Source of the DNA: a virus
DNA: 51,778 nucleotides
IMG/VR virus record: IMGVR_UViG_3300032069_000864
Span: 1 to 51,778 of that record
Direction: 5' to 3' (one strand)
Shown piece after piece: positions 8,634-50,821 of this stretch (within the stretch, counting starts at the first letter, position 1; the number at the start of each line of letters is the position of its first letter). The notes below the pieces were generated by a model. It did no database searches, was not told where the DNA came from, and saw only the letters and a program-made list of their open reading frames with translations. The translations under genes were made by a program, and so were the position numbers.

Positions 8634-8711
8634 CGCCCTCGCCCTGGTGCGACTAACCTATAGCCCCTGGTCCCAAACCCCACGCCCACCGTGCTCCCGC
8701 ATCCCCCGCGT

Positions 8712-8739
8712 ACTATTCAGCGCCAGAGTGGCGGGCCAA
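8712..8739 (-). promoter_or_regulatory. Possible promoter upstream of the SNF2 gene
   Basis: On the minus strand TTGGCC (8739-8734), 16 bp and AATAGT (8717-8712) each match four of six consensus bases. This would start transcription about 70 nt before the SNF2 gene, inside the largest gap (8634-8809) of the early operon. Apart from it I see nothing coding in that 176-nt gap. Confidence 0.35.
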
Positions 8740-8809
8740 CCGGCGGGCTATACTCCCCACTGTACCAACGCCGCCGACCTCCGGCCGACCCGCCGCCTCC
8801 GCTCCGCCC

Positions 8810-21810: not shown

Positions 21811-23994
21811 CTAGCTATAGGTGACGAGGCCGAGAGCCTTGATCGCGTCGCAGAACGCCAGCATCCAAGTGCCCGCGCTCGGTTTGCTGGAGCCGGAAAC
21901 CGTCTGCCTGGCGACAGGCGTGGCGGCATAGAAACCGATCTTCTGCGTGGTGCCGGTCGCGATCTGCATCCCGGTGGTAGTGTCCGTGGCGATGTTCTGC
22001 GCGCTCAGCGTCAAGGTCCCGGCTATGGACACGGCCCCATGGAGGTAGATGCCGATGTCCCCGTAAAGGTCGAGATGCCCATCGGCGTCGCTGGTGAGGT
22101 AAATAGTCGAATCGCGAAATTGCAATATGCCGCACCCGCCGCCGGTGGAGTTCGCGATCAGAATCGTCCCATACCCGAGCATCGTAGAAGAAAGCGTGAG
22201 GGTGCTTCCTCCCGACATGATGGCCCCGGCGAACGTCGGGGTATCGGAGGTGGTCAAGCCGCTGACGTCTGCCTGCCCGATGCTCGCCCAGGAAACCGTG
22301 GTTCCGCCTGCGGCTACCACCTCCTTGAACCAATAGGTGCCCTGGCTGCCAGGCACCGCTACTCGCGACGGCACGCCGCTCGCCCCGCCACAGATCATGT
22401 CGCCCACGGTGGTCATGGGGTTGCTCAGCACGGTCGCCCAGGTGTACCCGTTCTTTCCGCTATTGACCGTAAGCGCGTAGCCCGCCGTTGCTCCGATGGC
22501 GATCTCTGCCAGGGTCGTCGTGTCGGAGGCGTAGACGATGGCATATTGAGTCCAGGAGCTCTTGTTTGTCCCGCCGTCCGCCACCGCCACGTCGGTCGCC
22601 CCGCCCGCCATGTAGACCGCCTTGCCCTCGACGCTCATCACCCCGGCCGAGACTCGGGCCAGAGTGGTATCGGTGGCCGCCCCAAGCTCGATGGTGGAGA
22701 ATTGCGGGCTCCCCGTCGTGGAGTAATCCTGAGAGATGGTCGGGTTCCCGCTGATCTTGAGCGTCCGGTTCGCGTTCACCACATCGATGGTCAGCGCGCG
22801 CGCCGCGCTGATGGTGGTCGAAGAGGTGCAGGTAAAGGTCACGTCATAGGCCGCGCTAGTATCTCGCAGGGCGAACCCCGTGAGCGCCGCGAGCGTTCCT
22901 CCCGTGATCGCCACGGAATTCGCCGCCTGGGTAGCGATGGTGCCGAGCCCGGAGATGTCTCCGGTCGCGGGTTGCGCCTTCGTCCAGGCTCCCGTGCTGG
23001 AATTGTACGCAGTGAGGAAGTTATGGGAGGCTCCCGCCTCGTTGGCAGGCACTACCTGATCGCCGCTATTGGTCCCGGAGACCGTAGCCGTGCTGCTCAC
23101 CGTGAGGTTCGCCCCGAGCTTGAATGTCCGGTTCGCGTTCACCACATCGATGGTCAGCGCGCGCGCCGCGCCGAGGGCAGTGGAAGAGGTGCAGGTGAAG
23201 GTCACGTCATAGGCCGCGCTGGTATCTCGCAGAGCAAAGCCCGTCAGTCCGGCAAGGGTGCCACCCGTGATCGCTACAGAGCTCGCCGCCTGGGTGCAGA
23301 TCGAACCCAGCCCATGGACGGAGGTACCGGTGGCGTTCACGTGCGTAGTCAGATTGCTCTGCACGCCGGAGGCCGCACCGGAGGCGTCCGCTCCTACATC
23401 GGAATAGGTCAGTCCATGGGCGGCGAACCCGTAAGTGCTCTCGGTGAGCGCCTTGAGAAAGTACCCTGGGGTCAGCCCGGAGACCGTGTGGAGGGAGCCG
23501 ATCAGCGCGTGCTGGGAAGGAGAGAAGCTGCTTGGGATATTGGCGAGCGCGCCATACCCGATCTGTGGGCCCTCGCCCGCCGAGCCGGTATGATGGTGTC
23601 CGGTGCTCCCGTCGAACTTCGGGGAGTGATCCCCCCATCCATAAGCTGCATCCCAGGCCGATATGTCGCTGCTGTCGATCCCGGCAGCTACCGATCCAGA
23701 GAAGACCGGATCGGTCTCGGCAGAGACCAGCGCGCCCCACCCGGCGGAGTAGATGTAGATGGCGGCCGCGTCGGCAAGCCAAAGCGCCATTCCGGCAGTC
23801 GCCGCCGTCAATTCCCAGGCCGTGCCCGACCATTCGGCAACAGCATTCGCGTGGCCTGCCCAATCGCCACTGGGACTCGTCCCGATCAGATATCGATCTC
23901 CCGTCGCCGGCGATCCCGGTGGCGCGTCGAGTCGGTCCGCCACCGGCGGCTGCCAACTGAATGTGCCGAGGTCCGGGAGACGGTAATCAGTCAC
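21811..23994 (-). CDS. Tail fibre or receptor-binding protein with DUF2793 domain
   Basis: The 727-aa protein starts with a DUF2793-like module (APPGSPATGDRYLIG, GDWAGHANAVAEW, about residues 22-70), then Ser/Thr/Gly/Ala-rich repeats typical of trimeric beta-helical fibres. Two near-identical 57-residue blocks (each containing GFALRDTSAAYDVTFTCTSS) lie 121 residues apart. The C-terminus (DADGHLDLYGDIGIYLHG, KIGFYAATPVARQ) fits a fibre tip of the kind that shows structural variation between relatives. It follows a short DUF2793 gene and sits after the lysis genes, as fibre genes often do. Host receptor unknown. Confidence 0.8.
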   Translation of the reverse strand: MTDYRLPDLGTFSWQPPVADRLDAPPGSPATGDRYLIGTSPSGDWAGHANAVAEWSGTAWELTAATAGMALWLADAAAIYIYSAGWGALVSAETDPVFSGSVAAGIDSSDISAWDAAYGWGDHSPKFDGSTGHHHTGSAGEGPQIGYGALANIPSSFSPSQHALIGSLHTVSGLTPGYFLKALTESTYGFAAHGLTYSDVGADASGAASGVQSNLTTHVNATGTSVHGLGSICTQAASSVAITGGTLAGLTGFALRDTSAAYDVTFTCTSSTALGAARALTIDVVNANRTFKLGANLTVSSTATVSGTNSGDQVVPANEAGASHNFLTAYNSSTGAWTKAQPATGDISGLGTIATQAANSVAITGGTLAALTGFALRDTSAAYDVTFTCTSSTTISAARALTIDVVNANRTLKISGNPTISQDYSTTGSPQFSTIELGAATDTTLARVSAGVMSVEGKAVYMAGGATDVAVADGGTNKSSWTQYAIVYASDTTTLAEIAIGATAGYALTVNSGKNGYTWATVLSNPMTTVGDMICGGASGVPSRVAVPGSQGTYWFKEVVAAGGTTVSWASIGQADVSGLTTSDTPTFAGAIMSGGSTLTLSSTMLGYGTILIANSTGGGCGILQFRDSTIYLTSDADGHLDLYGDIGIYLHGAVSIAGTLTLSAQNIATDTTTGMQIATGTTQKIGFYAATPVARQTVSGSSKPSAGTWMLAFCDAIKALGLVTYS
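22763..22932. repeat. 170-bp direct repeat, copy 1
   Basis: Near-identical to 23126-23295, exactly 363 bp (121 codons) away, inside the tail fibre gene. The first 45 bp match almost perfectly. It encodes one of two beta modules and could recombine to change fibre length. Confidence 0.85.
23126..23295. repeat. 170-bp direct repeat, copy 2
   Basis: Second copy of the block at 22763-22932 in the tail fibre gene. Most differences are at third codon positions, so selection keeps the protein module. Confidence 0.85.
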
Positions 23995-26425: not shown

Positions 26426-26662
26426 TCACTCTGGCGGATTCACCGCCCCCAGCATTGCCACTGGCCGACCTCCCTCCATCGCAACCGCCACCGTCTGTCC
26501 CTCCGCGGCCTGCACGCCCTGCGCTGCCTGCACTCGGCAGCTCGCCCCTCCGATCGTCACCCGATATTCGCCTCCACCCAGATAGGCCGCGACCTGGCCA
26601 AAAACCATTGGCGCCTGCGGGCATGCGATCCGCCGCAACGCCCCTACCAGACGCGCGCTCAC
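26426..26662 (-). CDS. Small tail-tip protein, 78 aa
   Basis: GTG 26662 overlaps the TGA of the upstream tail-tip gene as GTGA. The product VSARLVGALRRIA...GQVAAYLGGGEYRVTIGGASCRV is a small beta domain (OB-like) similar in style to the N-terminal part of the upstream tail-tip protein (GWGVVTQVLRPGEIRLAG). It may be a paralogous module of the baseplate. Assignment is by resemblance only. Confidence 0.5.
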   Translation of the reverse strand: MSARLVGALRRIACPQAPMVFGQVAAYLGGGEYRVTIGGASCRVQAAQGVQAAEGQTVAVAMEGGRPVAMLGAVNPPE

Positions 26663-28860
26663 CGCGCCCTCCACCGCACTGCAATGATCCCGTCGCCGAC
26701 CCATGCCAGAGCCGCGAATCCCGTCGCCGGCGCTTCCATCGGTGCGGTGAAGCTCCAGGGGTTCCGAGTGACGCTGACTCCGGTCCCGATTTCCACCCCG
26801 CCCTTCGTCATCCGATAGGCGTGCGCCACGGGCCCGCCGTCAATCCCCTGGACCATCTGCTCCTTCGCCCCGACCACCCAAGTCAAGCGCGGGTGCGGAT
26901 CAGCGCCGACCGTCCCGAAAGCATCTCCCAGGGACAGTGTCATCATGTCGTCGGCGAAGTTGATCGTGCCCGTTCGCCACTGGGTGTCATAGTTCTCGAC
27001 TGGCATCCGCGCCACGGCCACGCGCAGCACGCCCGCCGCAACCTGAGCGCTGCCCAGCCGGTGATCGTAACCCGGGTCGCTCAATAGATCTTGTCGCGCT
27101 CCCCAGATCCCCTCCGCCGATCGCACCCGGCCGGATAGGCCGGCATCACTGCTCCCATACAGCGCCACCATCCGGCCGCCGGAGATCGAGCAGAGCGCGA
27201 CCTTCTGCACGTGGAACACGTCATAGTGGCCCTCGGCCTCCACGATTGGGGTCCAACCCTCAACCGTCTCCCAGGTGACCCCGTCGGCCCAGGTTCCCGG
27301 CGAGTTGCTGCGACCTACCGCGACGGCCCGGAAGAGCTCATCGGCCCGGGCCTCCGGAGGCGCGTCTCCTGCTGCCCCCGCGTCTACCAGGCCATTCGGC
27401 CATACCTGCATCCCCCAGTCATTCCCCTGCACATCCCCGACCTTGACGTACTCCTCGGCCGCCGGGCGTAGCGCGTAGACCCGCCGTGCGGTCGTACCAT
27501 CCGGGCCCTGACCCGGCGCGCCGAAGCCGCAGATCCAGACCCGGCGCCGGTGTAGACTGTTGCTCGTGGGCATGGTCGTCCCCGAACCGGGAGGCCCGGA
27601 GATCTCCACCGTCTGCTCCGCGTTCCCGGCCACCTCGAGCGCCAGGTAGGAGGGTCCGCTGTCGGTCGCGATATAGATGCGGCGCCCGGTCGTGTTCGCG
27701 GGGCCTGATCGCACGGTGACATGTAGGCTCTTCGTCTGCCCTGCCGCCACGTCGAAACTGGCCGTGGTTCCATAGATGTCCTGGCTGGCCGTGGTCTCGC
27801 CATCGCCTCCGGTATCGTCATCCTTGTAGTAGGTGACCCGCACGCCATAGATGTGAGGGCCTCCGAAACCGCCTCCGGAAGCCGTCTCAATGCCGCCGAG
27901 CGGATAGAAGATATCGGGTTCGCTACCCAGACCGATCAGCGGACTGTCGGTCGCCGTGGTGCCGGCGCCGCTCCCGGCGAAGCATTCCTCCTCGTCGCTC
28001 ACGTTGCCGACGCTGTAGAAGTGCCAGCCGGTCGTGAGATCGTCACCCCAGATCCGTCGCACTACCGGTATACCCGGGGTCATCTGGAAAGTGGCGACGG
28101 CCCAGTAATGCCCATCGGGACCGACCATCATCCCGCATGAGCCTCCGGGTTCCCACGGGCCAAACCCGCCGATCTCTGGCCGAGGCAATGCCACCGGGCT
28201 GCCCAGGCTCAGGCTCCCGGCCGAGACGGTACCGAGCAACGCATAGAGCGAGTAATCCGGCAGGCCACTCGTGTACGGATCCCAGTCCTCATTCCAAAGC
28301 CACCAGAGCGTAGACCCGTCCCGCAACAGGCACGCACTCGTTGGCGCCGGGCCGCCTTTGGCCTGGCCTCCTGGCCCGGTCACCGGTTCGAACGTGTGGC
28401 TGCCCGCCTCGCTCCACCCTTCCGCCGTCAGGAGTTGAGCGAACTGTCCCCGCAGGATGGCCAGCCGCCGATGCAGTGTCTCGGGTTCGGAACTGAGCCA
28501 GCTCCATAGGTCGGAGCCGATCATCCCGATCGCCCCGTGGACGTTCGTCCAATGGTCCTCCTCCTGGCCCGGCCAGGAGATATACGCGGCCTCTCCGATC
28601 CAGTTGATGGTCGGTCCGGGCCGCGGCCCGGCCAGTGCCGGCACGCCCTGCATCGGAATGACGAGCGACCCGTCTTCGGCCCGCAACCAGGCCACACGCT
28701 CGCCGACCTCGGGTGTGCGAGGACCGGCCACCAGCACTCGCTCCGGCCGTCCTGCCAGCCTGATCTCGCCCGGGCGCAACACCTGCGTTACGACTCCCCA
28801 GCCGCTCTGTGCGGCTCGCCGAAATAGTCGCCCGAGCACTTCGGAGATCTGTGCGCTCAC
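26659..28860 (-). CDS. Tail-tip/baseplate protein with OB-like N-terminus, 733 aa
   Basis: GTG 28860 overlaps the upstream stop as GTGA and follows GGAGG. The N-terminal 70 residues look like an OB-fold module (VVTQVLRPGEIRLAGRPERV). The centre holds a beta-rich Fn3-like block (YGVRVTYYKDDDTGG, TGRRIYIATDSGPSYLALEV) that resembles one in the 237-aa tail gene at 30706. The remainder has repeated Trp/Gly-rich beta blades (for example YDVFHVQKVALCSISGGRMV), suggesting a propeller or receptor-facing domain. It follows the 533-aa hub-like protein, consistent with the distal tail. Confidence 0.65.
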   Translation of the reverse strand: MSAQISEVLGRLFRRAAQSGWGVVTQVLRPGEIRLAGRPERVLVAGPRTPEVGERVAWLRAEDGSLVIPMQGVPALAGPRPGPTINWIGEAAYISWPGQEEDHWTNVHGAIGMIGSDLWSWLSSEPETLHRRLAILRGQFAQLLTAEGWSEAGSHTFEPVTGPGGQAKGGPAPTSACLLRDGSTLWWLWNEDWDPYTSGLPDYSLYALLGTVSAGSLSLGSPVALPRPEIGGFGPWEPGGSCGMMVGPDGHYWAVATFQMTPGIPVVRRIWGDDLTTGWHFYSVGNVSDEEECFAGSGAGTTATDSPLIGLGSEPDIFYPLGGIETASGGGFGGPHIYGVRVTYYKDDDTGGDGETTASQDIYGTTASFDVAAGQTKSLHVTVRSGPANTTGRRIYIATDSGPSYLALEVAGNAEQTVEISGPPGSGTTMPTSNSLHRRRVWICGFGAPGQGPDGTTARRVYALRPAAEEYVKVGDVQGNDWGMQVWPNGLVDAGAAGDAPPEARADELFRAVAVGRSNSPGTWADGVTWETVEGWTPIVEAEGHYDVFHVQKVALCSISGGRMVALYGSSDAGLSGRVRSAEGIWGARQDLLSDPGYDHRLGSAQVAAGVLRVAVARMPVENYDTQWRTGTINFADDMMTLSLGDAFGTVGADPHPRLTWVVGAKEQMVQGIDGGPVAHAYRMTKGGVEIGTGVSVTRNPWSFTAPMEAPATGFAALAWVGDGIIAVRWRAR

Positions 28861-30458
28861 GTGTCCCTCCAGCACTCGAGCTGCACGGTATGCGTCCAGG
28901 AGACCGCCTCTTCGTCAAAGCTCACCGGGACCGCGATGATCAGGGCTTCGAGATCAGGACATCCGCCTGGCAGGTTCTCCAGCATGATGCGCTGGCCCTT
29001 CCGATAGGGAAATGGACGAGGCCAGAGGATGCTCACCGCATACAGCCGTTTCCCGCTCTCGGCCGCCAGGTCGTCCGCGATCTGCTGGCAGATATCGCTG
29101 CCGACCAGGTTGTCGTCGCGCTCGACGCGCGGCCTGGCGCCGCCCCCATCCGCCTGTCCATAGTAAGTGTCCCCTTCGTCCACCGGGAGCTGCCGGATTC
29201 CCGACTGCAACGTCCCCGGTCCCTGCGTGAACGTGGTGTTGTTCACGCTCTCGCCATCTTCGGACACGGTGATCGTGGTGACCACGGTGCGCAACTCGGT
29301 GGGGGTCACCTGCTCGTACCGCGTGATCGTTCGTTGCTTCTGTGTCCAGGAGCCGCCCTCATATTCCGATCGGCGCTCCTCCTGCAGCACGAGACGGTAT
29401 TGCAGGTCGTAGCCGAACTCCGTGACCCGCCGCACGTGTTTCGGCTCCTCCGTGTGCAGATCTCGATCCTCATGGATCATGCTGGCAATCTGCACTTCGC
29501 CCAGCACCCGCTCATCGCCCTGACCGCCGGACCCACCTCCAGAGGTCTCCGCATCCCGCATCCCGCCCGCGCCGCTGTTCGCGGAGCACGAGTAATAGAC
29601 GGTGCGATACGTGATGTCCTCGGTCTCCCGACTCACGACCACCCGGTGGCCCGAGTTGTCTACGATCCCCGTCTCAGTCACTCGGTGGTTCGGGCTGTCT
29701 TGGGTGACCGCGACCGTGGTGCCGCTCGGCACCTGCCGCGAATAGTTGGCATACTGGAACTGGCCTGCGGTCCGATAGGTCGCGCCGTAGACCCGGATGT
29801 CGCCGACCAGTGGCTGCCGGGTGCGGCGAATGCTCCGTACGACGCCCTTGGAGCAGTCCAGCGTCCCCGCCACTGGCCCGTTTCCACGCCGCCGCACGAT
29901 CAACGTCATGCCCTGGACCCACGCATCCACTCGGTAGCGCTGGCTGATGCGCAGCGGCCCCAGGATCCGCTCGATGGCCGAGGCTGGGGATTCCTCCGGC
30001 GATAGGGAGAAGTGCCGCAACCCATAGTTGGGAGCATCCCATTCCACCGCCAGGCCCACCAGCCCGGCGATCTGCTCCACTAGGCTCCGCGCACTCGGGT
30101 AGGTATACTCGGACGGGTCGTCCTTCGGCCACGTGCCGAAGCCATAGTCCTGCTCGGTCCGCTCGTCTATCAGAAGGGCCGCCTGGTCCCGGGCCTCGAC
30201 CACGCTCCCCCATCCGGTGGGAGTCGGCTCGAGCGCCATATCATCTACCCGGAAGGTGCCATAGTCACTGAACCCGAGATCCCGCAACCCGAACTGCACC
30301 TGGAAGGTGTCGCCTTCCGTCAGTTCACGCCACGCCGTTGCGACAGGCTGTAGACGTGTGGTGGTCTCGGTCTCCCGGAGGTGCAGCGTCGCCGCATCGG
30401 CCAGCGATGCCAGCCGACTGTCAATGCTCGCTGCGACGATTCTGCGCTCGAGACTCAC
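28857..30458 (-). CDS. Tail hub/baseplate protein, 533 aa
   Basis: The N-terminus (SLERRIVAASIDSRLASLADA) and the alternation of long beta segments with a cluster SARSLVEQIAGLVGLAVEWD about residue 120 resemble the gp27-like hub proteins (late control D family) that cap the tail tube and hold the spike. A Gly-rich loop (GGGSGGQGDE) interrupts the middle. The C-terminal 80 residues (LYAVSILWPRPFPYRKGQRI, then ENLPGG) resemble the closing hub domain. It is upstream of the tail-tip protein, the usual order. Family assignment is inferred from pattern. Confidence 0.6.
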   Translation of the reverse strand: MSLERRIVAASIDSRLASLADAATLHLRETETTTRLQPVATAWRELTEGDTFQVQFGLRDLGFSDYGTFRVDDMALEPTPTGWGSVVEARDQAALLIDERTEQDYGFGTWPKDDPSEYTYPSARSLVEQIAGLVGLAVEWDAPNYGLRHFSLSPEESPASAIERILGPLRISQRYRVDAWVQGMTLIVRRRGNGPVAGTLDCSKGVVRSIRRTRQPLVGDIRVYGATYRTAGQFQYANYSRQVPSGTTVAVTQDSPNHRVTETGIVDNSGHRVVVSRETEDITYRTVYYSCSANSGAGGMRDAETSGGGSGGQGDERVLGEVQIASMIHEDRDLHTEEPKHVRRVTEFGYDLQYRLVLQEERRSEYEGGSWTQKQRTITRYEQVTPTELRTVVTTITVSEDGESVNNTTFTQGPGTLQSGIRQLPVDEGDTYYGQADGGGARPRVERDDNLVGSDICQQIADDLAAESGKRLYAVSILWPRPFPYRKGQRIMLENLPGGCPDLEALIIAVPVSFDEEAVSWTHTVQLECWRDT

Positions 30459-31827: not shown

Positions 31828-32199
31828 CTACAACGCCTGCAGCACGGCGAAAACCATCTCGACTTCGTATGCGTCCTGCCCCCGGATCGGAGTCTCTTTC
31901 ATCTCCCGGAAAAACACCAGATAGGAGGCCTCGAGGTCCGTCCATTTGAGCGGCGTGGCCACCAGCTCATACTTCTCCCGCAACGCGCTCAAGGTCGAGG
32001 AACTCACCCATTCCGTTCGGCACGTGATATCCTGGTCCGCAGTGGCCACCCCGAAATCCTGGATCACCCGCCCTCCATCGAGGGTCTGGACGGAACTCGA
32101 GCGCCGCGCCGGCAATCCTTTTCGATATTCGCTCGGGTCCACGTCCAGGTAGACCGGATCGCTATCGTCCGCCAAATCCAGGCAATACTCACTTGGCAT
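31828..32199 (-). CDS. Tail protein, 123 aa
   Basis: The protein (CLDLADDSDPVYLDVDPSEYR... VFFREMKETPIRGQDAYEVEMVFA) has acidic beta strands and a conserved-looking end as in tail assembly or distal tail proteins of siphophages. It starts inside the 54-aa gene upstream and follows the chaperone cluster where the tape measure usually lies. Role unproven. Confidence 0.5.
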   Translation of the reverse strand: MPSEYCLDLADDSDPVYLDVDPSEYRKGLPARRSSSVQTLDGGRVIQDFGVATADQDITCRTEWVSSSTLSALREKYELVATPLKWTDLEASYLVFFREMKETPIRGQDAYEVEMVFAVLQAL

Positions 32200-32353
32200 C
32201 GGATTCCCGCTTCCGTTCCCGCCGCGCGTGCTGGGCCTGCTTGAGCCGCCGCACTTCCTCCAGCACCGCCTCCGCCACTTCCATCGGCTCGATCTGGATC
32301 AGTCGGTAAATCTCCGCTGCCACCCGCCTGTAATGGTCGTTCAGTTCGCTCAC
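32189..32353 (-). CDS. Small charged protein, 54 aa
   Basis: GTG 32353 overlaps the TGA of the tail chaperone frame as GTGA, and its own stop lies inside the next gene. The product (VSELNDHYRRVAAEIYRLIQ, then a helix EAVLEEVRRLKQAQHARRER) is highly charged and likely a single long helix. Phages often have a very short gene just after the chaperone extension. No family named. Confidence 0.55.
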   Translation of the reverse strand: MSELNDHYRRVAAEIYRLIQIEPMEVAEAVLEEVRRLKQAQHARRERKRESDAK

Positions 32354-33095
32354 CGCCTCAGCCCCAGGCTCCGGGCCAGTTCCCGCGCGGTCCGGTTCGG
32401 AACCTCGAACCCCGCCTCTTCCCTCAGGCTGTCCACCGCCTTCCGGAAGCCCCGGAATCCTTCCCGGCCTCCCTGGGCCGCGGCGCAGGCGATGAACATG
32501 TGCTCCATCCGCTCCGCCGCCTCGAGCGCCCTCTGCCGCTGGATCGCCCGGGCCATGACCGCCACCTGTGCCGGGGTCCAGGTCTCCTCGAGTTGTTCTA
32601 CCGACTCGACCCCACAGGCCGTCATCAACAGCGCGTAGACGTCGGCCCGGCCGACTTTCCGACTCAGGCCAGAGCCGTCGTCTTCACCAGCTTGCCGATC
32701 TCCGCGATCTGTTGCCGCAAAAAAGGGACCTGGTTCACCTCGAGCATCGCCCGCACGATCTGCACGGCCAGCGGGAGAGTCAGATGCTCCATCAGGTAAT
32801 CTGGCTCGACATCGAAGAGCTTGCCCAGAAACTGCTCGAGCATGCCGGCGAGCGTCGGCAGAAGCGTCGGCAGGTTCTCCTCGAAGTGCGCCAGATCGAG
32901 CGTTGGGTGTTCCTTCACGATCTGCTCGAGGATGATCCCGAGGTCGGCCCCGAGCCGCTTGATCTGGGCGAAGGTGAGCGCGCGGACCACGATGCTCCGA
33001 TCGCCGATCGTGAAGTTCCGTTCGGTCGGGAACTCATAGGTCTCGATCTTGCACGTTGCCGTTGCCTTCCCGAGTCTGCGCCTGAGCCACTCCAT
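32350..33095 (-). CDS. Tail assembly chaperone, long form (-1 frameshift product, GT-like)
   Basis: The short chaperone frame contains the heptamer T TTT TTG (32724-32718) 19 codons before its stop. Slipping one base back leads into a frame that is open from 32718 to 32350; the resulting product has 126 + 122 = 248 aa. Siphophages make tail chaperones G and GT by exactly this kind of -1 slip. The downstream part alone (from TTG 32628) has no good start site. Frequency of slipping cannot be judged from sequence. Confidence 0.75.
32664..33095 (-). CDS. Tail assembly chaperone, short form (G-like)
   Basis: The 143-aa protein starts MEWLRRRLGKATATCKIETYEF and contains RSIVVRALTFAQIKRLGADL and DLAHFEENLPTLLPTLAG, helical as expected for tail chaperones that coat the tape measure before assembly. 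It lies 98 nt after the tail tube gene and carries the slippery site. The usual next gene, the tape measure, is missing here and is found at 44.7-48.5 kb. Confidence 0.72.
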   Translation of the reverse strand: MEWLRRRLGKATATCKIETYEFPTERNFTIGDRSIVVRALTFAQIKRLGADLGIILEQIVKEHPTLDLAHFEENLPTLLPTLAGMLEQFLGKLFDVEPDYLMEHLTLPLAVQIVRAMLEVNQVPFLRQQIAEIGKLVKTTALA

Positions 33096-33192: not shown

Positions 33193-34011
33193 CTATACGA
33201 CGTCGTACTCCTCGATGCAGCCGAACCGATCGCCCAGCGCGCGGCTGGTGTCCTCCAGCACGGTGATCTTCATCGGGATCGCCCGCGCCGCATCCTTGCT
33301 GATCTTGATGGCGCCGCCGAACCCGACGTTGCAGCGGTAGAACGCCACTGCCTGCTTCTTGCCCGTTGGCCCTGGCATCACGATCATCACCGACTTCTCC
33401 AGGATGCTGGATCGCCCGCCGAAGGTCATGCGTCGGCGACCGACCCCGGCCTCGACGATCTGGCCCGCTCCCAACACGACCTGCATGTTCTCCATGCTCG
33501 ACTCGAGCAGCGGGATGGTCAACTCGCAGGTCGTCTCGCCCGGGTAGGTCTTCACCGGCGCCGTGCCGTGCTGGCCGAAGATCTTCTTGATCTCCTCCTG
33601 GAAGTTCCAGTCCAGGGTATCCGCGAAGTCGCCCAGGTACTGGCCATCCACGTACACCGCATCGGCCACCCCGACCATCACGGCATCCGGGTCGTCCACG
33701 CCCGCGGCGTAGTAGACGAAGGCCTGCGCCACCGTTCCGGTCGGCTCGGTGTCGTCGTTCTCGCCCACGCCGATATCCTGGAAGCCGCCCTCCCAGTCAT
33801 CGTCCGCGATGTCCAGCGCCACCGTGAGTTCCGTGGCGCTCACGTAGGCCACGTTCGCCGCGTCCACGGCCACAAAGATCTCGTCTCCGTGCTTCCGGAA
33901 GAAGACCTTCGACTTACTGGGGGCGTCCGCGAAGTTCGTCCCGGTCAGCGTCAGCGTGTCACCGGTCTTCCCGATGTAAGGCTTGACTTGCGTCAGTGTC
34001 GGTGCCGCCAT
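33193..34011 (-). CDS. Tail tube protein with N-terminal IPT/TIG-like domain
   Basis: The 272-aa protein starts with APTLTQVKPYIGKTGDTLTLTGTNF, an IPT/TIG (Ig-like) domain (about residues 3-100), followed by a tail-tube-like domain (GETTCELTIPLLESSMENMQ, RRRMTFGGRSSILEKSVMIV) such as major tail proteins use. The Ig domain probably decorates the tail surface. Position right after the tail terminator and gp10-like genes and before the chaperones agrees. Confidence 0.8.
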   Translation of the reverse strand: MAAPTLTQVKPYIGKTGDTLTLTGTNFADAPSKSKVFFRKHGDEIFVAVDAANVAYVSATELTVALDIADDDWEGGFQDIGVGENDDTEPTGTVAQAFVYYAAGVDDPDAVMVGVADAVYVDGQYLGDFADTLDWNFQEEIKKIFGQHGTAPVKTYPGETTCELTIPLLESSMENMQVVLGAGQIVEAGVGRRRMTFGGRSSILEKSVMIVMPGPTGKKQAVAFYRCNVGFGGAIKISKDAARAIPMKITVLEDTSRALGDRFGCIEEYDVV

Positions 34012-40654: not shown

Positions 40655-40834
40655 GCTCGGCCTCTGCCTGCCCAAACGAAAACGGCGAGCGTTTCCGATG
40701 CCCACTCTCCCGGTCTCGCTCCATCCGTAGACGGTGCCGAGAGAATTCAGCATCAGAAACGCCCGCCGCGTAGTTGCTACGAAGGCAGGCACTCTTCAAT
40801 TGTCGGTCCGCGGTGGCCCCCGCGTTCCGGCGCC

Positions 40835-40863
40835 ACTATACTCGCCGGCCTATCCCCTGTCAA
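40835..40863 (-). promoter_or_regulatory. Strong late promoter before the head genes (minus)
   Basis: Minus strand: TTGACA (40863-40858), exactly 17 bp, TATAGT (40840-40835). Transcription would start about 40828 and reach the small basic gene, scaffold and major capsid genes. The -35 box overlaps the last codons of the 74-aa gene. This is the best promoter match of the late region. Confidence 0.85.
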
Positions 40864-42645: not shown

Positions 42646-44064
42646 CTACGGCTGCCCGCCGTCCGATGCCCCACCGTTGGTCGGCACGGTCCGGGTTCCG
42701 AGTAGCGCGGCTTCCTGCTCCTGCTCCTCCGCGATGCGCTCCATCTCCGCGTCCACGGCTTCGGGGCCATCCAGGCGCCGGATCGAACTCTCGATGGAGG
42801 TATTCCCGGCCGCCCGCCGCAGCGACTCCTGGCGGGTGAGCTGATCCAGGTCCTCGGGCAGACCGTCCGCCCATTGGATAGATACCGGCGCCGGCTCGTA
42901 GCCGGCTCCACCATGAATCTGCTCCAATTGCTGCGCCGCGTAGAGCACGGCCTTGAGTCCGCGGTCGAAGTAGAGCCGCTTCCGGTTGATCTTCGCGACG
43001 GTCCGGATCAGGCGGAGCCGGAGCGCCGTTCCGCTCGCCGCGATTCCGAACTTGTCCAGACCAAAGATGCTCGGCCCGGTCTCGCTCAGGATGAAGAGCA
43101 GCTCCATGAGGCGGTCAATGTAACTGAAGGCCGCCGTGAGTTGCGCATCCCAGGTGAGGTACTTGACATCATCCTCCCCCGGCTCCTTGATGATGACGTC
43201 CAACTTGTCGAGCTGCAGTTTCCCGTCCTCATCGAGCATGGAAGGCGGCGCCACCAGCCGCGGCGCCACGTGCTTGTCGAGCACGGTGTCCACCATGCTC
43301 ATGCGGTTGTTCAGCGCCTCGATCAGGCTCTCCAGGCCCTGATAGTCGCTGATCCCCCAGAAGCGGCTGCCATAGCGGAAGTTCGGGACGTGGTACAGCG
43401 GAATCTCAGTGAGGCCGGTCTCCACCTCCGCCGGAAGGTCAACGTACTCCGGCAGGTAAGTGATCTCGATCTCCTCTGCCTCTTGGGTATTCGGACTCAG
43501 GCGGAACAGGCGGTTTCGGATAATCCCTGGCTCGTGCTCCTCCACCCGTACCAGTTGGCGCTTCGGATCGAAGGGGTCTGCCTTGAGCCAGGCCAGCGAC
43601 GCCCGCACCACTTGCCGGACGTTGTCCTCGGAGAACTCCGGGAAGTAGATCGTGACTGGCACTTCCTCGATCAGCGCCTCGGGCTTCTCGCTCTGCGGCG
43701 TGCGCAGACCCCATCGCGCCTTGAGCAGCATGTCCCCGCGGAAGCTCCCCGCCAGGGCCGCTTCGTACGCCAACACGACTAGGTCGTTCTCCTTCACCAG
43801 TCGGCCGACGGCCTCGAGCGCCCCGGTGTTCGTCTCGTCCGCGACGGTGAAGTCCGGGGGTTCGCCCACCAGCATATCCGCGCACAGCGTGCTCAGCATG
43901 CCGGCGAAGTTCGCGGTGATGTAGCGAAGCAACTGGTACTTGCCTCCCGTCTTCACCTTGAACACGTCCGCGTGCTGCGCCAAGAACAGGGCCTCGTATC
44001 TCGAATACCGGCCCAAGCGCGCCTCCGCCCCCGCTGGGGGATACACCTTCCAGTTGATCGCCAT
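42646..44064 (-). CDS. Portal protein (SPP1 gp6-like), 472 aa
   Basis: The protein has the SPP1-type portal features: DNMLxKY-like start (KVKTGGKYQLLRYITANFAG), RGDMLLKARWG, WGISDYQGLESLIEALNNRMSM about residue 250, and the ending SLRRAAGNTSIESSIRRLDGP. It forms the ring at the capsid vertex through which DNA is packaged. The gene overlaps nothing upstream; the plus-strand membrane gene begins 57 nt away, back to back. Confidence 0.9.
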   Translation of the reverse strand: MAINWKVYPPAGAEARLGRYSRYEALFLAQHADVFKVKTGGKYQLLRYITANFAGMLSTLCADMLVGEPPDFTVADETNTGALEAVGRLVKENDLVVLAYEAALAGSFRGDMLLKARWGLRTPQSEKPEALIEEVPVTIYFPEFSEDNVRQVVRASLAWLKADPFDPKRQLVRVEEHEPGIIRNRLFRLSPNTQEAEEIEITYLPEYVDLPAEVETGLTEIPLYHVPNFRYGSRFWGISDYQGLESLIEALNNRMSMVDTVLDKHVAPRLVAPPSMLDEDGKLQLDKLDVIIKEPGEDDVKYLTWDAQLTAAFSYIDRLMELLFILSETGPSIFGLDKFGIAASGTALRLRLIRTVAKINRKRLYFDRGLKAVLYAAQQLEQIHGGAGYEPAPVSIQWADGLPEDLDQLTRQESLRRAAGNTSIESSIRRLDGPEAVDAEMERIAEEQEQEAALLGTRTVPTNGGASDGGQP

Positions 44065-44121: not shown

Positions 44122-44673
44122 ATGTCCCGCTTCCACCGTGTCGCCATCGCGCTGGCCCTGATCCTGCTTACCATCATCGCCTTCGTCCAGATCTCCTCAT
44201 GGTTGGATTCGCAGAGGTTGAAGGGTCAGGCCCGCATTGCCGCGGAACTCGCCGCGAAGGCCGAGAAGAAGGCCCGGACGGAGGCTATCATCCAGTCCTG
44301 GCTTGAGTTCGCCCTGGACCTTCATGCCGCCATGAATGACGGCTCTGGCCCCACCCGAGCCCAGATAACCCGGATTCAGACGTTGATGGACGAAACCGCG
44401 GATGTCTTCCCGGAATTCGTCGACGTCGACCGCAACACCGGACATTGCCGGGCTCTGGCCAAGTACCCATTCCCTGGAACCTACCCCCTTGATGATATCA
44501 CCTACCCTCGCGTAGAACTCGCCCGCGTCATCTGCGAGGCCAGCCCGCTGGTGACCGAGCATCTTTCGGAACCCCAGGCCCGAGGACGCGCTTCCATTGT
44601 CTGGGATGCCCTCAGAACACTGGCCGTGAACGACCCATCCCGCTCCCATCTTCCACCGGCCACGGCCCCTTAA
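44122..44673 (+). CDS. Membrane-anchored protein on the opposite strand (moron-like)
   Basis: ATG 44122 follows AAAGGA. The 183-aa product has one N-terminal membrane helix (VAIALALILLTIIAFVQISS), a charged linker (AELAAKAEKKARTEAI) and a C-terminal periplasmic or external domain with IQTLMDETADVFPEFVDVDR and ASPLVTEHLSEPQ. I recognise no family. It is the only plus-strand gene of the late region, sits between tape measure and portal, has its own promoter and shares four bases (TTAA) of its stop with the tape measure stop. A lysogen or early function at the envelope is likely. Confidence 0.7.
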   Translation: MSRFHRVAIALALILLTIIAFVQISSWLDSQRLKGQARIAAELAAKAEKKARTEAIIQSWLEFALDLHAAMNDGSGPTRAQITRIQTLMDETADVFPEFVDVDRNTGHCRALAKYPFPGTYPLDDITYPRVELARVICEASPLVTEHLSEPQARGRASIVWDALRTLAVNDPSRSHLPPATAP

Positions 44674-47600
44674 CCGCCCCGCGGGAATCGCTGGTCATGC
44701 TCCAGGCTCTCCGTGATGATCTCGGTCACGACGCGCGCCAGGTCTTCCTTGCGTCCCTGCGGCACGGCAATATCACCGATCCGTTCCCCGTTGTAGTACA
44801 GGTTCACCGTGGTCGGACCTCCACCGGATGTGCCCGCCGTGGCGGTTGCCGGCACCATGCCAGCATTGCCGCCCTGCATCGCCCTCTGGAGTTGCTGCTT
44901 CCAGGCTTCTGCCATCTGGTTCACGAGGTTGACAATCCCCGTGCCCGCGGTCGCCAGCGCGTCCCTCCAGGTCTTCGCCTCGGTCTCGATGTGCCCAATG
45001 GTCAGGTCGTGCTCTCGCTGTCTCGCCGCGAATTCCTCGGCCTGCCGTGCGTGGACTTCCTGCTGCGCATCGAGGGAGATACGCATGACGTCCTGCAGGA
45101 TCGCCTCAATCTCATCGCGGCTGATCTGCCCTCCCTGGTACGCCGCGAGCCCCGCCTCGCGTATCTGCTTCGCCCAGTCGAGTCGCGCCTCGGCTGGCAT
45201 CGCCCCCTGCCCCGCCTCTGCCATCGCCCGGGCCTGGTCCTTCAACTTCTCCTGTTGCGCCCAGTTGGGACCCGCGCCCGCCCCCTCTGCCTGGGCCACC
45301 AGGACATCGTATAGCGGTTTCCACGATCCCGCCCCAGCTCCGCCAGGCCCCATAGTTCGCAGTATTTCCAGCCGCTCTTTGGCCTGGTTCGCCTCGATGC
45401 TCCCGGCTTCTTCGCCCGCCACCTTCCTCCGGTCCGCCTCGCCCTGCAGCACCAGATCAATCACCGCGAGCCGATGCTGATACATCTCCGTCCAGTGGTC
45501 GGCCTCTTCCCTCGTCCAGCGCACTCGCTCTTCATGCGCCTGCTTCTCCCGCTCGCGGATTCCCTCCGTTAAGCGCGTCCGCTCCTCGAAGATCGTCTTG
45601 GTAAGTTCGCGCTCGCGCTGCAGCAACTCGGTGGACGGCTTGGCCCCGAAGTTCTGATTCTCCCGGCGCAACCACTGCACCATCTGCACCAGTTGCTTGA
45701 GCCAGGCGCCCAGGGACATCTGCCCCGATTCCTTAAGGGCATCCGCTGCATCGCGCCACGCCGAGGTCTCCCGTTCCAGACCGTTGATCCGCTCGTCCCG
45801 CTCGCGTTTCCCTCTCTCCATGGCCTGCTGGGAGGCCTGCTTCCGTTCCTCTTCGTGGTCCTTCTGTGCCTTCCAAAGGTTGGTTTGTAGATTCAACTCC
45901 GCCGTTCCCCGGGCATCCGCGGCCTTGGTCTCGTTCTCCCCCGCCTCTGTGACCTTCTGCATTTCGCCCAGGTAAGTCCTCACCGCCGCGCGGATTGCCT
46001 TTTCGTACGCGCCGCCCATCCTCTCTCCGCTCGCCTCCCAGGCATCCTGGAATTCCTTGGATCGTTTGCGCAGGTCGCCCAACTTCGGGTCATTGACGAA
46101 CTCACCGATGGCCCGTGTAAACGCGTCGGCCGCCTCGCGAGGCACTCCGAGATTCTTCAGTTCCTGGGCCGCCTGCTTCTCCAATTCGGTCCTGGCGGCG
46201 CGGGCCGCGGCCGCGGCCACCTGATCATCGGCCCGTTTCTTCGCTTCGTCGGCCGACCTGCGGGCCTCCGTGGCCCGCATCTTCTCAGCGACCGTCCTCG
46301 CCTGTTCCTCCCGGTCTTTTAGGTCCTTCTGTCCCTCGCGGATCGCCGCATTCGTCTTCTCAATCGCCTTCCCCAATTCAACCTCACATACCGCCGCTTC
46401 CGCCGCGGCATGTCGCCATTTGTTTTCCTGCGCCGCGCGGTCGGCCTCACTGGTCGCGAGGTTGGGGGCACCCTTGCGGGCCGCTATCCTCTCCGCCTGT
46501 TCGATATATGTCTTCCGCTGCGCGGCCGTCTTAGCCAACTCGGCCTGCAGCTCCCCCCGTCTTCCGATTTCTTCGGCCACCTTCGCGCGTTGCTCCAGTA
46601 TGTAACTCGCCCAGGCCGTTCTTTGCTCCGCGGTCATCTGGGCCGCCATTGTTTGGAGAGGAAATGCCAATCTTCGCTTTCCGGTGTTTGGGTCCACCTT
46701 GGCCCATCCGGACATCACGTCGGCAATATCCGATTCGACCGCCCCTTTCTGCTCGAGTTGCTCTTTCGTCGGCGGTTTCCCGGCGGCCTGGCCCTTCGCG
46801 ATCTCGTCATTAACCTCCTTGAGCTTGGGCAACAGCTCCGCCAAGGCCTCAGTCTGCTTGCGCGTCGCCTCGGCCTGCTTCTCCGCCTCCTCCTTCGCCT
46901 TTTCGACGTGATTCGTCCAGAGCCGCCATACCTCCACCACTCCAAGAATCGCGATCATCATCCAACCGATGGGGCCCAGAGACGCGAAGAACCCTCGCAC
47001 GGCTCCGGCCGCGATGCGAAAGCTCATCGTAAGTCTGGCCGTCGCACCGGTCATGACTGTCACTCCGGCCGCGGTCTGCGTCAAGAGCGAGAAATCCCCC
47101 GGCTTCACTATCTGCCCCAATGCAAACATGCTGGATGCTCCGGGGGCCATCCCGCGCAGCCCGATCATCGGACTCACAGAACCGCGTGCCGTCGCTATAG
47201 CGTTCGCGATGACCGCTGCTCGCGACCCGGCTAGGGCCACCACCAGTTTTCCGAGCAGCGCGATTCCGCCCCTGATATGTGAACCATACGCGAGCCAGGC
47301 CGCGCCGCCCAACGTCACGGCCGCAGTCAGGCCTACCGCGGCCACCATCGTCGTCCGCAATGGCGCTGGGACCGCGGCGATGGCCACCGCGAGCGCGGTC
47401 AATATCCGGCCCGCGAAGGTAAGAACCGGAATCAAATCTGCTCCAAATGCTTCCAGGGCCTGACTGATAGCGGTGCGCATCTGCCTCGACTGCATGGCGA
47501 AAGTGTTCGCGCTCGATGCGAAGGCGCGATCCACAGCGCCCACGGAGTCACTCACCTGCTCCAGCTTTTGGGCGAAGAGCGCGCCATCCTGAGCGGCCAG

Positions 47601-48467
47601 GGCCGCCACGGCCTTGAACGCCCGGGCGCCGCCCGCCATCTGGATCATCGCCTGCTCATCGTCTCCGGCCGCATCGGTGAGGAACTGGATCGCGCCGGCC
47701 AGACCCCGCGCCTCGACCAGCGCCTGCCCCGAAGCATAGCCGGCCTGGGAGAGGGCCGCCTTGAGTTGCGCGCTCGGGTTGCTCAACTTGACCATGACCA
47801 TGTTGAGGCCCATCAGGCTGTTTTCCGCGTCGTACCCGACCGTGGTCATCGTCGCCAGAGCGGCCGCGAGCTGGTTATACCCGATCCCCAACTGGGACGC
47901 GACCGGAACGACGCCTCTCAGTGCGGCCATCAGGTCCTGGAACGACATGCGCCCGACCTGGCTGGCCCGGAGCAGGGTATCCATCGAAGCCGCGGCCTGT
48001 TCCACGCTGAGTCCATAGGCCCGCATCACCGAAACCTGGGTATCCGCGACCGTCGCCATGTCGGCCCCGCCCGCGACGGCCGCTCGGGTCGCGGATTCCA
48101 GGACCTTCATGCCCTCCGCTCCGCTCACCCCGGCTCGCGCGATATTGGCGAGGCTGCCGGCCAGTGCTTCGTCTGCCACTCCGGTGGCCCGGGCCAGACT
48201 GTGAAGTTGCTCGGCCGTCGCCTCTAGTTCGGCCTCGGTCAACTGCAGGACCTTGAGCATGTCGGTGAGCGCGGTCTGCATCTGGGCCGCTTCGCGGGAG
48301 GCCAGGCCCATCCCCGCAGCCGCTGCGCCGCCGATCGCCGTAAGGAGCATGATGACCTGCCCGACGTGTTGGGCGTGCTGCTGCAGCAGGCTTTGGGCTT
48401 TCCCCAGACCTGTCTGGAAGTCCGTCAGGTCCAGCCGCATCCTGGCGACGATCTCTCCGACCATCAT
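44670..48467 (-). CDS. Tail tape measure protein
   Basis: I start at ATG 48467 (MMVGEIVARMRLDLTDFQTG) behind GAGG; the longer frame crosses a terminator. The 1265-aa protein has the TP901-type tape measure core (TALTDMLKVLQLTEAELEAT, then RATGVADEALAGSLANIARA) about residues 70-300, two hydrophobic segments (LTFAGRILTALAVAIAAV; LGPIGWMMIAILGVVEVW), then a long coiled coil (KQTEALAELLPKLKEVNDEI). At about 0.15 nm per residue the tail would be near 190 nm. The location between terminase and portal, 12 kb from the tail chaperones, is exceptional. Confidence 0.93.
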   Translation of the reverse strand: MMVGEIVARMRLDLTDFQTGLGKAQSLLQQHAQHVGQVIMLLTAIGGAAAAGMGLASREAAQMQTALTDMLKVLQLTEAELEATAEQLHSLARATGVADEALAGSLANIARAGVSGAEGMKVLESATRAAVAGGADMATVADTQVSVMRAYGLSVEQAAASMDTLLRASQVGRMSFQDLMAALRGVVPVASQLGIGYNQLAAALATMTTVGYDAENSLMGLNMVMVKLSNPSAQLKAALSQAGYASGQALVEARGLAGAIQFLTDAAGDDEQAMIQMAGGARAFKAVAALAAQDGALFAQKLEQVSDSVGAVDRAFASSANTFAMQSRQMRTAISQALEAFGADLIPVLTFAGRILTALAVAIAAVPAPLRTTMVAAVGLTAAVTLGGAAWLAYGSHIRGGIALLGKLVVALAGSRAAVIANAIATARGSVSPMIGLRGMAPGASSMFALGQIVKPGDFSLLTQTAAGVTVMTGATARLTMSFRIAAGAVRGFFASLGPIGWMMIAILGVVEVWRLWTNHVEKAKEEAEKQAEATRKQTEALAELLPKLKEVNDEIAKGQAAGKPPTKEQLEQKGAVESDIADVMSGWAKVDPNTGKRRLAFPLQTMAAQMTAEQRTAWASYILEQRAKVAEEIGRRGELQAELAKTAAQRKTYIEQAERIAARKGAPNLATSEADRAAQENKWRHAAAEAAVCEVELGKAIEKTNAAIREGQKDLKDREEQARTVAEKMRATEARRSADEAKKRADDQVAAAAARAARTELEKQAAQELKNLGVPREAADAFTRAIGEFVNDPKLGDLRKRSKEFQDAWEASGERMGGAYEKAIRAAVRTYLGEMQKVTEAGENETKAADARGTAELNLQTNLWKAQKDHEEERKQASQQAMERGKRERDERINGLERETSAWRDAADALKESGQMSLGAWLKQLVQMVQWLRRENQNFGAKPSTELLQRERELTKTIFEERTRLTEGIREREKQAHEERVRWTREEADHWTEMYQHRLAVIDLVLQGEADRRKVAGEEAGSIEANQAKERLEILRTMGPGGAGAGSWKPLYDVLVAQAEGAGAGPNWAQQEKLKDQARAMAEAGQGAMPAEARLDWAKQIREAGLAAYQGGQISRDEIEAILQDVMRISLDAQQEVHARQAEEFAARQREHDLTIGHIETEAKTWRDALATAGTGIVNLVNQMAEAWKQQLQRAMQGGNAGMVPATATAGTSGGGPTTVNLYYNGERIGDIAVPQGRKEDLARVVTEIITESLEHDQRFPRGG

Positions 48468-48499
48468 CGGCCCGTACCTCGCACCATCCCGCCCCCAAC

Positions 48500-48560
48500 A
48501 AAAAAGGCGACGAGCTTTGACCAGGAACGCGCGTGCGTCCACTCGTCAAAGCCCGCCGCC
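48500..48560 (-). terminator. Intrinsic terminator before the tape measure gene
   Basis: On the minus strand GGCGGCGGGCTTTGAC (48560-48545) pairs with GTCAAAGCTCGTCGCC (48521-48506): 16 pairs with two G-U, followed at once by six T (48505-48500). The loop has further partial pairing. It ends 33 nt before the tape measure ATG, so the tape measure needs read-through or antitermination, or transcription from the T-run region. Confidence 0.8.
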
Positions 48561-48687
48561 TGGCTATGCAGGTTAGCGGGGCGCATCTCCTTCTCTCGTG
48601 CTGATCGCGTACCAGTAGGACTGAGCGAACTCCGCCGAGAGCGAGTCCGAAGGGAACGTGAGGGGGCCACCCCAACGCTCCCGCGCG
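48500..48687 (-). ncRNA. Possible leader RNA between promoter and terminator
   Basis: A TTGACA-17-TAGACT promoter (48721-48693) and the terminator at 48500-48560 define a transcript of about 190 nt. No coding frame with a good start is in it. It may be an attenuator-type leader of the tape measure gene or a small RNA. Inferred from signals alone. Confidence 0.4.
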
Positions 48688-48692
48688 GCCGC

Positions 48693-48721
48693 AGTCTATT
48701 CCCCGGCCGCCGCCGTGTCAA
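48693..48721 (-). promoter_or_regulatory. Promoter upstream of the tape measure leader (minus)
   Basis: Minus strand: TTGACA (48721-48716), exactly 17 bp, TAGACT (48698-48693; four of six consensus bases). It lies at the end of the 78-aa gene. A terminator follows about 130 nt downstream. Confidence 0.65.
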
Positions 48722-48932
48722 CCACGCGAAGGCCCGCCCCGAGTTGGTATTGAGGTCGGCGGGACAGTACCTCCATCGTTGTTGGCTCGCCACCGCGATA
48801 AGCGATCCGCACTGTGATCTCGCCGTGGCCGCCGAGTTCCTGCCCCTCGCGCGCCAGCGCCGCCGCCAGATCCCGCAACCGGCGCTCTGCGCGCGCCCGC
48901 CGCTGTCCCTCCTCGCCCGTGCTCGTTGCCAC
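48696..48932 (-). CDS. Small hypothetical protein, 78 aa
   Basis: GTG 48932 follows GGGGG by four nt. The product (VATSTGEEGQRRARAERRLR, then GEITVRIAYRGGEPTTMEVL) has a charged helix and a short beta part. It follows the zinc-ribbon gene by eight nt in the packaging module. No family named. Confidence 0.5.
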   Translation of the reverse strand: MATSTGEEGQRRARAERRLRDLAAALAREGQELGGHGEITVRIAYRGGEPTTMEVLSRRPQYQLGAGLRVVDTAAAGE

Positions 48933-48940
48933 TGTGCCCC

Positions 48941-49111
48941 CTATCCCACCAACCCCGGGTCCGATTTCCGGTACATGTGCCCCTTGCACCCACACTCATC
49001 GCATTTCGCCTCCCTCACCGCGGTGCCCATGCGGATCACGCTCTCCGTCTCGTTGCCGCAATTGCTGCAGACCGTCTTGACCGTGTAGTGACCTTCCTGC
49101 GTTTCTGGCAT
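48941..49111 (-). CDS. Small zinc-ribbon protein, 56 aa
   Basis: ATG 49111 follows AAAGGAG by five nt and is one base past the terminase stop. The product has CSNCGNETES (about residue 15) and CDECGCKG (about residue 37), two CxxC pairs of a zinc ribbon. Small zinc ribbons near terminase may bind DNA or packaging proteins; role unknown. Confidence 0.7.
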   Translation of the reverse strand: MPETQEGHYTVKTVCSNCGNETESVIRMGTAVREAKCDECGCKGHMYRKSDPGLVG

Positions 49112-49112
49112 T

Positions 49113-49985
49113 TCAGCTCCTTTGTTCCTCCGTGTCGCCGCCCAACTGGCGACTGCCCCTCTTCCGTACCTGCCAGGCGATCCCGGCCGCGATCACCCGG
49201 TCGTCGTGCGCGTCCGGCGCGGCCTCGCCGTCTCCCCGATCGGTGACGATGAAGCTCATGCACTCGTCCAGCAGCCCGGCCGACCGGATCCCGATGTGCT
49301 GGCCGGCTATCGCGGCCGCGAGATCGTCAATCAGAATCGGTCTGGTCTGCACATCGGTTGGCCAGCCCAGGATCGCCACGGCCTTCTTCCCCGCGTCGTA
49401 CCGGACATGCCGGTAGAGCCGCGGATAGCGGCAGACATTCCGAAGCGTGTTGAGCGTCGAGTGCCCATGGTTGTTCCGCTCGACCGCGAGTTGCGCCATG
49501 CGATACCAACGCCCCACGCCCGACAGCAGCAACGCGAAGCGATCGGGAGCCACCCATCCGTGCAGTTCTGCGACCTGTTCGCCGCTACGCCGATCAAGGA
49601 CGCAGGCCGCGCTCGCATCTCGTCCCTCGATACCCTCGCCCACATCTGCCCCGATGACGTAGGAGCGGTTCACCGCCGGCCGGGACCAGACCATGAGCCG
49701 CGCCGGCGCCACCGCCAGATCACGGCCGCGCGATCTGGGCAGTGTCGGCACGATCTCGGGCGCAAGACCCTGGGCCTTCGCTGCCAGCGCCTTGAGCGCG
49801 TCCACATCGAAACGCTGCCCGCCGCTCGCGAGGAAACAGTCCACGTCGGACTCCGGATACTGCTCCGGGAAGCGGCGCCGCAGTTCCTGTTGCTTCTGCC
49901 GACGCCATGCGATCTGGCCAAGCGAGAGGCCATGGATTCGGATCAGCTCGAGTTCCTCGGCGTTGAGCGGCAGGACCGCGGTCAC
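49113..49985 (-). CDS. Large terminase, nuclease domain (separate gene)
   Basis: GTG 49985 overlaps the TGA of the ATPase gene as GTGA and has GGAGG exactly seven nt upstream, so it is translated as a separate protein of 290 aa. It begins with the linker usual after the ATPase part (LGQIAWRRQKQQELRRRF, EQYPESDVDCFLASG), then has the RuvC-like nuclease motifs VIGADVGEG, AVERNNHG and DAHDDRVIAAG. It should cut concatemers during packaging together with the ATPase protein. Confidence 0.85.
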   Translation of the reverse strand: MTAVLPLNAEELELIRIHGLSLGQIAWRRQKQQELRRRFPEQYPESDVDCFLASGGQRFDVDALKALAAKAQGLAPEIVPTLPRSRGRDLAVAPARLMVWSRPAVNRSYVIGADVGEGIEGRDASAACVLDRRSGEQVAELHGWVAPDRFALLLSGVGRWYRMAQLAVERNNHGHSTLNTLRNVCRYPRLYRHVRYDAGKKAVAILGWPTDVQTRPILIDDLAAAIAGQHIGIRSAGLLDECMSFIVTDRGDGEAAPDAHDDRVIAAGIAWQVRKRGSRQLGGDTEEQRS

Positions 49986-50821
49986 ACCCGTACCTCCATT
50001 CCAACCCTCCGGAGTTGCTCGCTCCAGACCTCAACCTGCTCGGCGGTGGGATCGCTTCGATACTCTGTATGCTCGTGCCAGGTGTAGAAGTGGGGAATGA
50101 ACCTGCCCTCTCCATCCCGGGCCGCCTTCCACAGCGTATGGAAATGGTTGCCCACTCCGTTGGCCGTGCTTTCCATCACGATCCGGCCGCCAGCCGGAAC
50201 CGCCTGCAGCAGTCCGACCAGCGCCTCTTCTGGATGGGTCCAGCGGGCCACCTCCGAGCAGTGCAGGTTGTGGATCGTCAGTCCGTGTCCGAACCGACCA
50301 GATCCGGCCGCGCCGACCCAGAACCGGCTCCCGATCGCCGGCCACGCGATCTCCCGCTTGTTGTCCCGGTTTGGACGACCGGCCCGGGCCTTCTCTCGCT
50401 CTGGCAGCCGTGCCCAGAAGAGTTGGGCGATCTCGAAGATCTTCTGCGCAGATTCCAGGTCGTGGGCCACCAACGCAGATGTGGTGTTCGGACGGAGCAG
50501 GCAGTCCGCGAACCAGAGCCCCTCCACGAAGGTGGTGATCCCCTCCTGCCGGGCCTTGAGGATCAGATCGGCGGACGTGCGATATTGGTTATAGTCTCGC
50601 TGGATGTCGTTCAGGATGAAGGGGATGATCCGCCGTTGCTTGTCGCGAATCCAGAGGTTATGCTCGATCCAGTCGGTTGGGTCTGCGCGCAGTCGAAGCA
50701 GGCTTTCGAGGCGCTCGGCCAACCTTGCCCTGGCCGCCGGTGCTCCGTCCAGCGCCGCGGAGTAAGGCGAGGAGCTGGTCTGCCTCCTCGTCGGTGAGAT
50801 CACGCTCCCGGCCAGACTCAT
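49982..50821 (-). CDS. Large terminase, ATPase domain (separate gene)
   Basis: ATG 50821 is preceded by AGGAGGTGAT, a near-perfect ribosome site, although the start lies 164 nt inside the small terminase gene. The 279-aa protein has the terminase ATPase: Walker A-like ILKARQEGITT about residue 88, Walker B with LTIHNLHCSEVARW, and coupling motif VMESTANG about 225. It ends after WSEQLRRVGMEVRV where normal large terminases run on into the nuclease. An alternative TTG start at 50722 is possible. Confidence 0.85.
   Translation of the reverse strand: MSLAGSVISPTRRQTSSSPYSAALDGAPAARARLAERLESLLRLRADPTDWIEHNLWIRDKQRRIIPFILNDIQRDYNQYRTSADLILKARQEGITTFVEGLWFADCLLRPNTTSALVAHDLESAQKIFEIAQLFWARLPEREKARAGRPNRDNKREIAWPAIGSRFWVGAAGSGRFGHGLTIHNLHCSEVARWTHPEEALVGLLQAVPAGGRIVMESTANGVGNHFHTLWKAARDGEGRFIPHFYTWHEHTEYRSDPTAEQVEVWSEQLRRVGMEVRV

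Follow-up and report, generated by a model that had tools for sequence, protein, structure and literature searches.

Why should an intact tape measure protein (TMP) gene lie between the terminase and portal genes of a phage whose late genes are otherwise in the expected order? The succession of tail assembly chaperones and TMP is among the most reliable annotation rules for long-tailed phages, and coupled synthesis or stoichiometry is the explanation often given for the adjacency. The window analysed here is one metagenomic contig of an uncultivated phage (IMG/VR virus record IMGVR_UViG_3300032069_000864, 51,778 bases), and no terminal direct repeats were found over its 51,778 bases. Its late genes are on the minus strand and, in the direction of transcription, encode a ParB-like protein, the small terminase, a split large terminase, ORFs of 56 aa and 78 aa, the TMP, the portal (42646-44064, -; phrog_533, 1.4e-46), a minor head protein, scaffold, MCP, connectors, tail tube (33193-34011, -), a chaperone with a second frame, a 54-codon ORF and small tail genes. 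Against the canonical siphophage order (portal, head, tail tube, chaperones, TMP, tail tip), all but the TMP are in place.

The displaced ORF (44670-48467, -) was matched by 14 PHROG tape-measure families, the best being phrog_991 (6.8e-40), and by Pfam PF10145 (4.6e-23). Its start was placed at the ATG at 48467, in agreement with homologues (MTVGE or MMVGE), which gives a protein of 1265 aa without stops; an alternative upstream GTG at 48542 would extend this to 1290 aa, but lies inside a leader hairpin. Alignment and tree show full-length orthology to the TMPs of relatives, and the protein shares sequence family, size and the conserved N-terminal domain with the wider TMP family (PF10145; phrog_991, phrog_1533, phrog_28). 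It differs from usual TMPs in the place of its gene, which stands between terminase and portal as the first behind a late promoter and away from the tail chaperones, 11.6 kb downstream of it. The customary position after frameshifted chaperones, a positional trait that is not essential to the protein, is absent from the window. Family scans of other late ORFs gave no TMP-family match, and a TMP search of the record itself returned a single copy. The original prediction, which described a complete 1265-aa TMP between the packaging genes and the portal and no second TMP, is borne out by these results, and the displacement is confirmed as real.

It is highly improbable that this ORF encodes a TMP-like protein with another role while the true TMP sits unrecognised elsewhere in the phage. 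TMPs diverge fast, so a second, highly divergent one might escape detection, and two tail ORFs (26659-28875 and 28857-30458) had no PHROG match. Both, however, match downstream tail genes of TMP-bearing relatives, the orthology of the window ORF to canonical TMPs runs along its full length, and the chaperone-adjacent slot holds nothing longer than 54 codons.

That vacated slot is tightly closed. The tail assembly chaperone (32664-33095; phrog_1442) and the second frame that overlaps it and ends at 32350 (together 32350-33095, -), are followed by the 54-codon ORF (32189-32353, -) and then by a tail gene (31828-32199, -) that tblastn places directly after the TMP in most relatives and that forms the right edge of the slot. 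The small ORF overlaps both neighbours, with the stop of the chaperone second frame (32352-32350) overlapping its GTG start and its own stop overlapping the region where the next tail gene starts (ATG 32199), and no ORF is broken. This agrees with the earlier description of chaperones at 32.3-33.1 kb with small tail genes next. A second TMP beside the chaperones was looked for, and only the 54-codon ORF was found there; it had no relative in phage records, PHROGs or Pfam. In two related contigs (G003 and G013), the TMP occupies exactly this slot.

We compared gene order across relatives gathered by TMP and portal scans with single sequences and alignments, whole records then being searched for TMPs. 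The TMP was in its canonical place in 17 of the 17 related contigs where it was located, either after the tail tube and chaperones or well downstream of the portal. It lay about 9-17 kb downstream of the portal in G001-G004, G006-G008, G010-G012, G014 and G021 (tail tube and chaperones are out of view in G006 and G021; elsewhere among the portal-bearing contigs the TMP follows them), and directly behind the chaperones in G013, L002, L003, L005 and L021, where the portal is outside the stretch. The terminase-portal gap was free of a TMP in all of the approximately 30 relatives in which both terminase and portal can be seen, and no second contig with the order terminase-TMP-portal was found among the relatives examined. 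Paenibacillus phage Unity, the nearest isolate by portal, is also canonical; megablast of the window against phage records returned no match. The displacement is a property of the window phage, not of its group. Of the two explanations originally offered, a rearrangement or an unusual lineage, the first is favoured by the orthologous TMP in the usual slot of relatives, G003 and G013 included, and the second is not supported as far as it implied a whole group with altered order, the arrangement being present in the window contig only.

Phylogenies indicate whose TMP this is. A structural-gene tree (MCP, Ad1, a tail-completion protein and tail tube) grouped the window with G003 and G013 (100/100), and in the full-length TMP tree a branch set these three apart from the others (98/97). 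Because the two trees pick the same two relatives, the TMP was most likely relocated within its own lineage, and it is probably that lineage's own gene, moved within it, rather than a foreign one. The best full-length match was the TMP of G013, which has a central insert in common with that of the window.

An arrangement carried by one metagenomic contig, with every located TMP among relatives in canonical position, could also reflect misassembly, in which pieces of the contig were misordered or a related-phage chimera was formed and the true genome is canonical. We consider this unlikely. It needs three wrong joints, none of them with a repeat of a length that could confuse an assembler, and the fact that every junction falls between intact ORFs argues against it, as do the closure of the chaperone-side slot by overlapping ORFs, the agreement between trees of the TMP and its neighbours, and a uniform composition (GC 0.65 within and around the block).

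The moved block is bounded on its left, at the new site, by the 78-aa ORF (48696-48932, -), which tblastn found conserved in the terminase-portal gap of approximately 20 relatives; the portal gene is the right neighbour of the block. Within the 3' end of the small ORF lies a promoter, TTGACA-17-TAGACT (48693-48721, -), which corresponds to the late promoter found ahead of the portal in relatives, and the leader behind it contains, immediately upstream of the TMP start, a terminator-like hairpin with a T run (48500-48561, -). The leader fold (48692-48465) had a z of -4.28, and its match to R1, a covariance model of the leader, was weak (3.8 bits). The leader exceeds that of relatives by about 110 nt and the conserved box is unrecognisable, so the insertion boundary is only approximate. 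No late-type promoter was found in the 640 nt preceding the window portal. A candidate portal-leader remnant just before the portal (GAGAACTGAGGA, 44084-44073) was no better than expected by chance and was set aside.

Of 29 relatives, 27 have a promoter of the window's pattern immediately ahead of the portal, followed by a leader and then a terminator hairpin carrying a T run. Given this placement, the window promoter is best read as the late-operon promoter-terminator module, with the TMP now behind it. The prediction that the TMP has its own promoter and leader holds in that such a promoter is present; the separate control of the tail-length protein drawn from it is probably wrong, and a TMP-specific promoter was rejected since the same module precedes the portal in relatives.

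Between TMP and portal lies an orphan gene of 183 aa on the opposite strand (44122-44673, +), with coding-like composition and a predicted N-terminal membrane helix. It is convergent with the TMP gene, the two stops overlapping at TTAA. A protein model from the single sequence (pLDDT 69) has a long predicted N-terminal helix, and an extended -10-like motif (TGCTATACT) was noted by eye, one not picked up by the promoter scan. No relative was found in viral contigs, phage records, PHROGs or Pfam. A moron would have a promoter and terminator of its own and be missing from relatives; this gene is missing from relatives and may be moron-like.

The leader module recurs within the late genes. A box like GACAACCGAATA lies between promoter and terminator hairpin in relatives, and RNAalifold predicted 12 pairs in the leader hairpin, eight of which had changes on both sides (covariation). 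Model R1 detected a second copy between the minor head protein and scaffold genes in most relatives; in the window this second leader (40678-40804, -; 25.2 bits) is preceded by a promoter (40835-40863, -). The element occurs twice per phage, before portal and scaffold, in L004, L010, L013, L020, L024, L029-L036, L052 and others. Rfam at the gathering threshold gave no leader match in the window and four relatives. Separately, a type II hammerhead ribozyme (RF02276, 53.3 bits) was found in L029 at 1946-2011 (+), away from the leader.

In phage lambda, the late promoter pR' is followed by the early terminator tR' and is under Q. The element described here is similar in having a strong promoter with an intrinsic terminator within about 100 nt, ahead of late genes, and relatives likewise carry such a promoter and close terminator before their late genes. 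It differs from pR'-tR' in preceding the portal and then the scaffold again, and in a leader box without an Rfam match. The architecture resembles that of a late promoter whose early terminator requires antitermination, and the promoter-leader-terminator element may be a target of late-operon antitermination.

The gap that received the TMP also takes other genes. L034 carries there (7060-9134) an AbiEi_2-type protein and a nucleotidyltransferase (weak NTP_transf_8 match); L043 (6216-8158) and L056 (7192-9134) carry a pair that is the same by sequence, possibly a phage-borne AbiE-type system, and L036 (1192-2742) carries a TPR-HEPN protein (HEPN_LA2681). With such cargo in relatives, the terminase-portal gap is an insertion hot spot. 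The cargo of relatives precedes the promoter module, leaving the promoter beside the portal, whereas the window TMP lies after the module.

A gap that accepts cargo raises a further explanation, namely arrival of a related phage's TMP in the hot spot, with subsequent loss of the native TMP. The first 330 aa of the TMP are slightly closer to those of X002, X003 and G014 (66-67% identity) than to that of G013 (62%), as import might produce, and a tree of the N-terminal region alone gave no resolved grouping. The full-length tree weakens the case for a foreign TMP by pairing the window with G003 and G013, as the structural genes do, and the central insert common to the window and G013 points the same way. 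We regard import as quite unlikely. Relocation of a functional TMP gene within its own phage lineage, by way of the hot-spot gap, is the explanation in which we have good confidence on the basis of these comparisons.

Such a relocation would have begun from an ancestral order of terminase, small ORFs, late promoter with leader-terminator, portal, head, tail tube, chaperones, TMP and tail genes. Illegitimate recombination, most likely, would have placed a copy of the TMP gene at the hot spot, with or beside the moron-like opposite-strand gene; the original TMP behind the chaperones would have been lost afterwards, with the 54-codon ORF left in the old slot. No recombination scar, mobile element or useful repeats linking the old and new sites were found in the window. 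The positions, the intact ORF, its orthology and the canonical order in relatives are observed; we infer both this route of duplication followed by loss and its effect on expression. With its gene at the head of the transcript from the first late promoter, the TMP would be made ahead of the chaperones, which, encoded 11-15 kb later, would act on it in trans. The fuller proposal, in which the TMP is first in a late regulon under a previously undescribed, twice-used promoter-leader-terminator RNA element and is made before, and in trans to, its chaperones, is put forward tentatively.

Single structural genes outside the canonical order have been described in other phages. The portal of phiCbK-like phages lies 18-20 kb from terL (PMC3556154), and in Arthrobacter cluster AQ tail genes are upstream of terL, described only as large predicted tail genes (PMC5513430). 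In phiCbK the TMP still follows its chaperones, in contrast to that of the window. Relative to lambda/HK97/SPP1-like late modules such as that of Unity, the window has the same order of terminase, portal, head, connectors, tail tube, frameshifted chaperones and tail genes, and differs in that the TMP is gone from the chaperone-side slot and placed before the portal. We found no case of a TMP parted from its chaperones in the open-access literature, most subscription papers lying outside this search. If the relocation is true, the near-universal adjacency of chaperones and TMP is dispensable, and an order of genes that is generally taken as fixed is open to change. An intact TMP away from its chaperones in an otherwise canonical genome implies that coupling is not obligatory, at least in the window phage, which makes it a natural test case for chaperone-TMP coupling and a warning for pipelines that call TMPs by position. 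The same comparison revealed the hot spot for defence-like cargo and the conserved late-operon RNA element.

Other features of the contig were recorded alongside. The large terminase is encoded by two overlapping ORFs (49113-50821, -), with the ATPase part at 49982-50821 and the nuclease part at 49113-49985; in the window these simply overlap at GTGTGA. Several relatives are split at the same point between ATPase and nuclease (L010 1320-3461, L027, L028 7273-9468 and L035 6457-9537), with an HNH-endonuclease-like ORF inside the split in L010, L027 and L028 and a repeat-rich membrane protein in L035. A sequencing error was rejected as the origin of the split because several relatives share it, with a similar tail. 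The 56-aa ORF downstream of the terminase (48941-49111, -) is zinc-ribbon-like, with four cysteines and a sub-threshold match to Pfam Zn_ribbon_8, and related ORFs are present in L024-L028. A putative tail fibre gene (21811-23994) contains a 190-nt direct repeat (22743-22932 and 23106-23295, 85%), and downstream of the tail genes, at 19337-20434 (-), lies a gene for a subtilase-family protease (PF00082, 4.9e-32).
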